From positions 45,324-85,792 of the forward strand of contig JARGFZ010000010.1 of the NCBI GenBank assembly GCA_029210965.1: a stretch of 40,469 bases of DNA, written 5' to 3'. Below the pieces are notes generated by a model. It had not been told where the DNA came from, searched no databases, and saw only the letters and a list, made by a program, of their open reading frames with translations. Numbering within the stretch: the first letter of the stretch is position 1; every line of letters begins with the position of its first letter. A program made the position numbers and the translations under genes. The DNA is from a bacterium. Lineage in GTDB: Bacteria; BMS3Abin14. Below are positions 5,223 through 40,349 of this stretch, one piece after another.

Positions 5223-5242
5223 CCCTGAGCTTGTCGAAGGGC
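5223..5242 (+). repeat. REP-type palindromic element, copy 1
   Basis: CCCTGAGCTTGTCGAAGGGC, an imperfect palindrome. Further copies at 14883-14920 (as a double, inverted pair) and 40310-40349 (two direct copies). The same sequence type is scattered in many environmental bacterial genomes. Confidence 0.8.
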
Positions 5243-14877: not shown

Positions 14878-14882
14878 TGTCC

Positions 14883-14920
14883 CCCTCGACAAGCTCGGGG
14901 CCCTGAGCTTTGTCGAAGGG
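14883..14920. repeat. REP-type double palindrome, copy 2, flanked by an 11-bp direct repeat
   Basis: Arms CCCTCGACAAGCTC (14883-14896) and GAGCTTTGTCGAAGGG (14905-14920) form a long hairpin. GTCCAATGTCC occurs on both sides (14872-14882 and 14925-14935). The left end supplies the ribosome-site-like GGGGG for the beta-helix gene. Confidence 0.75.
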
Positions 14921-17285: not shown

Positions 17286-17443
17286 GTTCTCCGAACCTGG
17301 AACCTGAAATAGGGGACAAGAAAATAGCGAGTGTCGGAGTCGAATATGTTCAGGAGAATTCGTCAGCTGGCTTGTGAAAGTTTGCATAAATAGTCGTATT
17401 TACACTATATGTAAGCCCTTGTGCATTTTTTCTCAAAAAATAC

Positions 17444-17472
17444 TTGACATGGCGTAGCACGCTTGTTAAAAT
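17444..17472 (+). promoter_or_regulatory. strong sigma-70-type promoter of the small-peptide operon
   Basis: TTGACA (17444-17449), 17-bp spacer, TAAAAT (17467-17472). The -10 box is embedded in the palindrome 17461-17482. Confidence 0.88.
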
Positions 17473-17482
17473 TTTAACAAGC
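17461..17482. promoter_or_regulatory. perfect 22-bp palindromic operator over the -10 box
   Basis: Half-site GCTTGTTAAAA followed immediately by its exact inverted complement. It covers the -10 box and the likely transcription start, the classic place for a dimeric repressor. The regulator is not encoded next to it. Confidence 0.85.
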
Positions 17483-17527
17483 TCAGAGGATGAAACACAC
17501 GGTCTTAAGTTTAAGGAGGTGATCAAA

Positions 17528-17671
17528 ATGATGGAATTCCTGCTAACGATGGGTGTCATAGCCCTTGTTTTCGTTGCTGCGACCATCGTGGTCGCCCTGA
17601 TTTCGGGAGCACTTATGAAGCTGAAGGAATCGGCCTTAAGGCGAAATGCTGAGAAATCCAGCCCGAAATGA
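17528..17671 (+). CDS. small single-span membrane protein, paralogue 1
   Basis: 47 aa (MMEFLLTMGVIALVFVAATI...LKESALRRNAEKSSPK). One hydrophobic span (about residues 4-30) and a basic, charged tail, so probably inserted in the inner membrane with the tail in the cytoplasm. Start chosen for the near-perfect Shine-Dalgarno AAGGAGGTGATC 4 nt upstream. A second, clearly related peptide follows 32 bp later: shared pattern M-x-EF, then F-x-AAT-x-x-VAL-x-x-G-x-L. I do not recognise a named family. The strong promoter, strong ribosome sites and own terminator argue for a real, well-expressed, repressor-controlled two-peptide operon; a stress-induced membrane peptide role is only a guess. Confidence 0.75.
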   Translation: MMEFLLTMGVIALVFVAATIVVALISGALMKLKESALRRNAEKSSPK

Positions 17672-17703
17672 TATCGGGCATGGAGCTTGGAGGAGGTGCT
17701 AAC

Positions 17704-17841
17704 ATGTTAGAATTCATCACAATGCTGTCAGTCGTCGCCATGATCTTTTGTGCCGCTACTGTTTTCGTAGCTCTCTTCGCCGGCGGTGTTCTCAAAGCCA
17801 GCCGGGCCATGAGAAAGAAGGCAACCCAGGAAATTTCCTGA
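17704..17841 (+). CDS. small single-span membrane protein, paralogue 2
   Basis: 45 aa (MLEFITMLSVVAMIFCAATV...KASRAMRKKATQEIS). Same layout as the upstream 47-aa peptide: hydrophobic span about residues 4-29, then a basic tail; one Cys at position 15 inside the span. GGAGGTGCTAAC precedes the ATG, again a strong ribosome site. The pair look like a tandem duplication that has diverged to about one third identity while keeping EF near the start and AAT-x-x-VAL-x-x-G. Followed after 26 bp by a strong intrinsic terminator, so the operon ends here. Function unknown. Confidence 0.75.
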   Translation: MLEFITMLSVVAMIFCAATVFVALFAGGVLKASRAMRKKATQEIS

Positions 17842-17864
17842 CCTGGTAATAGTGATCTCGTAGA

Positions 17865-17895
17865 GAGGGGAGCCATCAGGCTCCCCTTTTTTTTT
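17865..17895 (+). terminator. rho-independent terminator of the small-peptide operon
   Basis: GGGGAGCC (17867-17874), loop ATCA, GGCTCCCC (17879-17886), then nine T. Strong. Confidence 0.95.
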
Positions 17896-18160: not shown

Positions 18161-18240
18161 TTCCAATTTGATACCCGGGATTTGTTCGGGAAAATGGAGT
18201 AAAATCAGACTATTACAAAAATGTAACAATTTCTGCCGGA

Positions 18241-18259
18241 TTGGCATCCCACTTGCAAA
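18241..18259 (+). promoter_or_regulatory. sigma-54-type promoter of a small-peptide gene
   Basis: TTGGCAT (-24) and CTTGCAA (-12); GG (18243-18244) and GC (18255-18256) are exactly 10 nt apart. Predicted start near 18267, 59 nt before the peptide ATG. Confidence 0.75.
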
Positions 18260-18325
18260 TACCTGATTGTAATTAATAGTGAGCAAGTGCCTGATTACAT
18301 GCAGATTCAAAAAGGGGCATCTGAA

Positions 18326-18433
18326 ATGAAGGCAAAAGCAATAGCCGTTGATAGGAGAAAGATTGTTGTGCTTCGGTTGGCATGGCTGCTTTCAGCGGGC
18401 GGTTGTTTAATGATCCTTCAACTCCTTTTTTGA
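18326..18433 (+). CDS. small membrane peptide behind the sigma-54-type promoter
   Basis: 35 aa (MKAKAIAVDRRKIVVLRLAW...MILQLLF). A basic head (K, R rich to residue 17) and a hydrophobic tail (about 18-35) ending on Phe suggest a tail-anchored or single-span membrane peptide. ATG 18326 has AAGGGG 9 nt upstream; an in-frame ATG at 18299 would give 44 aa. Too short for homology by eye and not of a family I know. Support is the well-placed sigma-54-type promoter just upstream and absence of any other gene before mraZ. Alternatively the transcript could be a small RNA. Confidence 0.5.
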   Translation: MKAKAIAVDRRKIVVLRLAWLLSAGGCLMILQLLF

Positions 18434-18512
18434 TCCTGTCAGTCTACTAAGGTGAGGCTGCCTGTCGTTTAGTCTCACCATGTAAAAGGTGTTTTACCCC
18501 CACCCCACCCCC

Positions 18513-18544
18513 TGGCCCGGGGCCGGTTTACCGGCTCCGGGCCA
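18513..18544 (+). terminator. 14-bp-stem GC-rich hairpin
   Basis: TGGCCCGGGGCCGG, loop TTTA, CCGGCTCCGGGCCA; all 14 pairs form in RNA with one G-U. Followed by AACCTCGTTT rather than a T-tract, so termination is possible but not certain. Confidence 0.55.
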
Positions 18545-18560
18545 ACCTCGTTTAAAAACA

Positions 18561-40309: not shown

Positions 40310-40349
40310 CCCTGAGCTTGTCGAAGGGAGGGAAGCTTGTCGAAGGGAG
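40310..40349 (+). repeat. REP-type element, copies 3 and 4 in direct orientation
   Basis: GCCCTGAGCTTGTCGAAGGG followed by AGGGAAGCTTGTCGAAGGG. Confidence 0.8.

Follow-up and report, generated by a model that had tools for sequence, protein, structure and literature searches.

Tandem small membrane peptides with a nearly exclusive promoter architecture in a poorly known bacterial phylum, and a relative in a T4-like phage

Two related genes for membrane proteins of 45 to 47 amino acids, both unannotated, form a compact operon in the window (the whole stretch of 40,469 nucleotides of bacterial DNA that was analysed). The peptides belong to an unrecognised family that is conserved only in one poorly known phylum, of which environmental genomes are apparently the main source. 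Small membrane proteins regularly escape notice, and for most of them no role is known; in this case, a defined family comes with a private control region and a phage version.

The operon and its peptides

The promoter is of the sigma-70 type (TTGACA-17-TAAAAT, 17444..17472, + strand) and matches 11 of 12 consensus positions, with the -35 box TTGACA at 17444-17449, a 17-nucleotide spacer and the -10 box TAAAAT at 17467-17472; TTGAC is invariant in 12 promoters. Over the -10 box lies the putative operator, a strandless, perfect 22-bp palindrome (GCTTGTTAAAATTTTAACAAGC, 17461..17482), of which shuffled DNA is expected to contain none, even if three mismatches are allowed. All further features lie on the + strand. 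Peptide 1 (A type, 47 amino acids, 17528..17671) follows the Shine-Dalgarno sequence AAGGAGGTGAT (17513..17523), whose GGAGG is invariant in the promoter alignment, and has one hydrophobic helix, an N-terminus of net charge -1 and a basic C-terminal tail. Peptide 2 (B type, 45 amino acids, 17704..17841), with a conserved Cys16 in its membrane helix, follows the Shine-Dalgarno sequence GAGGAGGTG (17690..17698). The unit ends in an intrinsic terminator (17866..17895) with the stem GGGGAGCC-ATCA-GGCTCCCC and nine T; the hairpin is present in the minimum-energy fold and is not listed by a simple consensus scan. An earlier note on this DNA had described a near-consensus promoter with a perfect palindrome across its -10 box, a pair of strong ribosome sites, two related single-span peptides and a strong terminator, and each of these was found at the positions it gave, the two peptides of the window being homologous and about 33% identical. 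That description did not include two conserved elements upstream of the promoter, another such operon in the host genome or the relative in a phage.

Both peptides start with M-x-E-F, continue with one hydrophobic stretch of about 26 residues that contains small residues and end in a basic tail. M1, E3, F4 and F15 are invariant in the family and G27 is nearly so, while Cys16, in the middle of the helix, is invariant in all B sequences, including the phage copy. Hydropathy is high, and the predicted structure of peptide 2 is a single helix from residue 2 to 44 (mean pLDDT 88), features shared with the small single-span hydrophobic peptides of type I toxin-antitoxin systems. As the positive-inside rule suggests, the N-terminus is probably outside and the basic C-terminal tail in the cytoplasm.

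A family confined to one phylum, and its phage copy

Protein searches of related genomes revealed orthologues in several genera as tandem pairs, and the host genome (G000) has a second pair at G000:C10:24979-25302 on the minus strand. A profile built from 17 orthologues gave 23 matches, spread over 8 of 12 genomes examined from the phylum, among them all seven of high quality, although six of these matches come from the fragmented genome G001, where some are cut by contig ends and one gene may be counted twice. The four genomes without the family are 71 to 81% complete, and the genomes compared are mostly metagenome-assembled. No convincing match was obtained in about 380 genomes of other families, with the proviso that searches with short profiles can overlook diverged relatives; out-of-phylum matches with E values of 0.002 to 0.008 were rejected, as they fall mostly within long frames and resemble generic membrane helices. 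When 84,980 species genomes were scanned for the N-terminal pattern, loci were found in only four metagenome-derived genomes, apparently G001, G003, G004 and G009. Plasmids and named phages had no relative of either peptide, and 50,697 phage records were without a match. The statement of the earlier note that neither a stress-peptide nor a type I toxin family is recognisable still holds; there was no significant match in Pfam, NCBIfam, PHROGs or PDB chains.

Codon comparison gave dS above dN in every orthologue pair. For the A peptide, dS/dN was 0.154/0.039 between G000 and G001 and 1.207/0.193 between G000 and G006; for the B peptide it was 0.357/0.020 between G000 and G001. Differences between G000 and G006 at codon positions 1/2/3 numbered 9/5/25 in A and 9/5/28 in B. 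Between G000 and G001, the genes and their spacer are 92 to 97% identical, against 54% for the upstream intergenic stretch. Conservation of orthologues, the excess of dS and the greater conservation of the genes than of upstream DNA show that the frames encode proteins and evolve under purifying selection. Neither of the outcomes that the earlier note had named as speaking against it, lack of conservation or neutral change, was observed: the family is conserved and silent changes outnumber replacements. A tree of 22 peptides has few well-supported forks; with sequences this short, it gives neither a date for the A/B split nor a position for the phage copy.

The content of the operon varies. 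Besides A+B there are A-only operons (G009 and one G003 locus) and a B-only locus in G006, which is a recent duplicate (dS 0.09). An obligatory A:B partnership was ruled out by these A-only operons, the B-only G006 locus and the B-only phage. In several genomes one locus is flanked by mraZ/dcw genes on one side and by a divergent TauE/SafE-type permease gene on the other; others adjoin ubiE, pyruvate phosphate dikinase, or tRNA-modification and dnaK genes (names read by eye from the sequence). There is no constant neighbour across operons, the sole recurrent link being frequent divergence from the permease gene at that one locus. Since the operons sit in unrelated neighbourhoods, the unit appears to be self-contained.

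Upstream of mraZ, at 18240-18545 of the window, is a candidate sigma-54-dependent small RNA, also seen at loci L060, L058, L050, L061 and L077. It comprises a promoter-like site (TTGGCATCCCACTTGCA), a C-tract (CCCCCACCCCACCCCC) that is strictly conserved and unpaired, and a GC-rich hairpin of 13 pairs, in which three pairs have changes on both sides and 97% of cells are paired. A 35-codon frame (MKAKAIAVDRRKIVVLRLAWLLSAGGCLMILQLLF, 18326-18433) with one hydrophobic stretch lies between the sigma-54 site and the C-tract. Some relatives seem to have short frames in this position; G009 does not, and there the promoter-like site is about 25 bases upstream of the C-tract with no reading frame between. 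Separately, a short dispersed element with GAGCTTGTCGAAGGGC occurs at 5227-5242, 14881-14896 and 40314-40348 of the window (5 matches versus 0.4 expected).

A viral contig of 83,100 bases with T4-like replication genes (L158/L159) codes for a B-type peptide of 42 residues, a homologue of a host gene in a viral genome, as is the case for phage-carried host auxiliary genes. It is 74% identical to the query across 31 residues, and 71 of 93 bases are identical to the gene in the window. Its neighbours match phage DNA polymerase, exonuclease, primase and sliding clamp. The gene has no operator and sits behind TATAAATA, the T4 late-promoter box; in 20 kb of the phage there are three copies of this box, all on the coding strand and just upstream of genes (0.7 expected per strand). 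Downstream of the late-type promoter and ahead of the peptide gene's ribosome site there is a near-perfect hairpin (GGCTGTGAAATATCTCACAGCC, L159 9960-9985). A second profile-guided viral scan found no contig beyond this one. The phage presumably infects this phylum, and transfer was presumably from host to phage.

Promoter elements and the search for a regulator

Nearly all copies share a promoter of roughly 115 bp, and twelve promoters were aligned across about this length upstream of the transcription start. In addition to the -35 box and the operator, the aligned blocks are element 1 (consensus TTNGTGAAAGTTCGCATTAGT; 17370..17391, + strand, about 105 bases upstream of the predicted transcription start) and element 2 (TTGTG-N8-CACAA and an A-tract). 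In the window, element 2 is an 18-bp imperfect dyad, TTGTG-N8-C(A/T)CAA, followed by the A-tract (17419..17436, + strand, centred near -52). The family consensus of the operator is AGCTTGTTA-N6-TRACAAGCT.

These elements are nearly confined to peptide promoters. The earlier note had proposed a genome scan for further copies of the palindrome, which revealed a second exact core site at the second peptide operon; thus, the two exact copies of CTTGT-N10-ACAAG in the host genome are exactly those of the two peptide operons (the reversed control gave five). Of 12 matches to the operator core across the eight genomes with peptides, 11 are at peptide promoters and the single exception is likely to be due to chance. 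All seven exact matches to the core of element 1 in 12 genomes, and all ten to TTGTGN7TCNCAANAAA of element 2, are at peptide promoters. As the motifs were derived from these promoters, such matches are there by construction and the information is in their absence elsewhere. A loose 24-bp operator search gave no obvious recurring site elsewhere and a few weak extra sites, though motif searches overlook degenerate sites. The operator had no match in the viruses searched. The full promoter is not always needed, since the single-peptide operon of G003 retains the operator while element 1 is absent and most of element 2 is lost or degenerate.

From this near confinement a global regulator (SOS, Rex, CRP/FNR) is unlikely and we infer a dedicated one. 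SOS control was rejected as the operator is not shared with recA, lexA or other damage genes. TTGTTAA-N4-TTAACAA resembles the clostridial Rex site, and its one perfect copy in the genome is at this operon; the clostridial form fits and a Rex gene is present, but the site is confined to these operons, which argues against Rex. Element 2 has the geometry of a CRP/FNR/HcpR site, but this reading was rejected for want of further copies beyond peptide promoters. The expectation that a regulator gene might lie beside the operon was not borne out, no consistent one being present: in one genome, an Rrf2-type gene (G006:C10:1086-1481, L049) is directly 3' of the operon terminator, but elsewhere it has only distant paralogues with about 30% identity and no close orthologue, and it was rejected as the dedicated regulator.

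Possible function and relation to known systems

The chances are about even that this is a dedicated, normally silent and strongly inducible operon for single-span inner-membrane proteins with an accessory or protective role. A repressor encoded elsewhere would occupy the 22- to 24-bp operator over the -10 box and block RNA polymerase, and one or two more DNA-binding proteins, probably activators, may act at the -52 and -105 elements. Output on induction should be high because the promoter and ribosome sites are strong, and a tight operator over such a promoter, together with tiny membrane products, would fit a burst of A and/or B peptide when a specific signal lifts repression. Each peptide would enter the membrane as a single helix, with the N-terminus probably outside and the basic tail cytoplasmic. 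There it may serve as a stoichiometric accessory or protective protein, acting on a partner complex or on the bilayer, and not as a catalyst; this role is suggested by analogy and by the expression logic, and repressor, activators and topology are predicted. The T4-like phage carries its B-type gene under a late-type promoter, freed of the operator. A more specific version, which we advance tentatively, is that a phylum-specific membrane-peptide response has its own private circuit, in which the operator and both upstream elements serve nothing else, and that the phage captured B to control the membrane or energy state of its host during infection, much as hli genes serve cyanophages.

It is unlikely that the peptides are type I toxin-like, arresting growth by depolarising the membrane when induced and otherwise held by the repressor, with the phage using one late in infection. 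Their small size and single span, the duplicated copies, the tight operator and the phage copy behind a late-type promoter would all suit such peptides. However, no minus-strand sigma-70-like site is conserved at any position in eight operons (the scan covered sigma-70-like sites, with trans-acting RNAs outside its scope), there is no Rfam match in the window, and neighbourhood comparison found no antitoxin gene beside the operon. Type I systems usually have a translational block; here, the ribosome sites are strong, near the start codons and without one. The operator, being nearly exclusive to these operons, is not a LexA-type box. With no conserved antisense promoter, the hint of a toxin in the earlier note gained no support, and a protective or accessory role is preferred because neither a conserved sigma-70-like antisense promoter nor an antitoxin gene turned up, the ribosome sites are strong and the phage keeps the gene.

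That role overlaps with a narrower one, rather unlikely in our view, in which the peptides are subunits of one defined membrane complex (as are CydX, KdpF and AcrZ), with A and B bound either to one version of the partner or to different ones. A single helix with such invariant residues, including Cys16 in B, is consistent with this, and subunits of this size are well documented (AcrZ: PMC7267776; CydX: PMC4325964), but no conserved partner operon lies alongside and there is no sequence match to solved small subunits. A holin-like origin, in which phage membrane peptides were later domesticated, appears very improbable: although a homologue lies behind a late-type promoter on a contig with T4-like genes, two profile-guided scans gave this one viral contig only, phage records gave no match and PHROGs no significant one, variety is far greater in the bacterial family, and the phage copy is inside a replication cluster with no lysis genes alongside in the stretch read.

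Should the expression logic outlined above hold, function could be approached directly through the phage copy: as a T4-like phage keeps one host-type peptide of 42 residues, what infection gains from it ought to be measurable. With the nearly exclusive promoter elements as bait, the regulator could be isolated.

Like AcrZ, KdpF, CydX, MgtS and YohP of Escherichia coli, the peptides have fewer than 50 residues and one helix. Those proteins are often up-regulated under stress, as is YohP (PMC12719787), or act on a larger membrane protein, as does AcrZ (PMC7267776), and YohP illustrates how so small a peptide can be protective to cells, through altered membrane and metabolism (PMC12719787). In contrast to them, the present family shows no sequence match, a duplicated A/B pair, an almost exclusive three-element promoter, no adjoining partner complex and a phage-borne copy. 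With the SOS-linked type I toxins TisB and DinQ, the latter the toxic single-span product of an SOS-regulated gene, with an antisense RNA opposing it (PMC3567139), it shares small single-span peptides and, as predicted here, a tight repressor. It differs from them in showing no conserved sigma-70-like antisense RNA promoter, no visible translational block and an operator that is not a shared SOS box. The phage-shock operon is controlled by PspF, a regulator of small membrane proteins with very few targets, and a few-target regulator over small membrane proteins is also what is proposed here; however, the promoter is of the sigma-70 type with an operator over the -10 box and lacks a sigma-54 site, and no adjoining PspA/B/C relatives were recognised. 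Cyanophage hli genes are a case of T4-like phages carrying the gene of a small single-span stress protein of the host. The present phage copy, too, is a small single-span host-type protein in a T4-like phage, although the sequences are unrelated, the host is not a cyanobacterium and a single phage contig is known.
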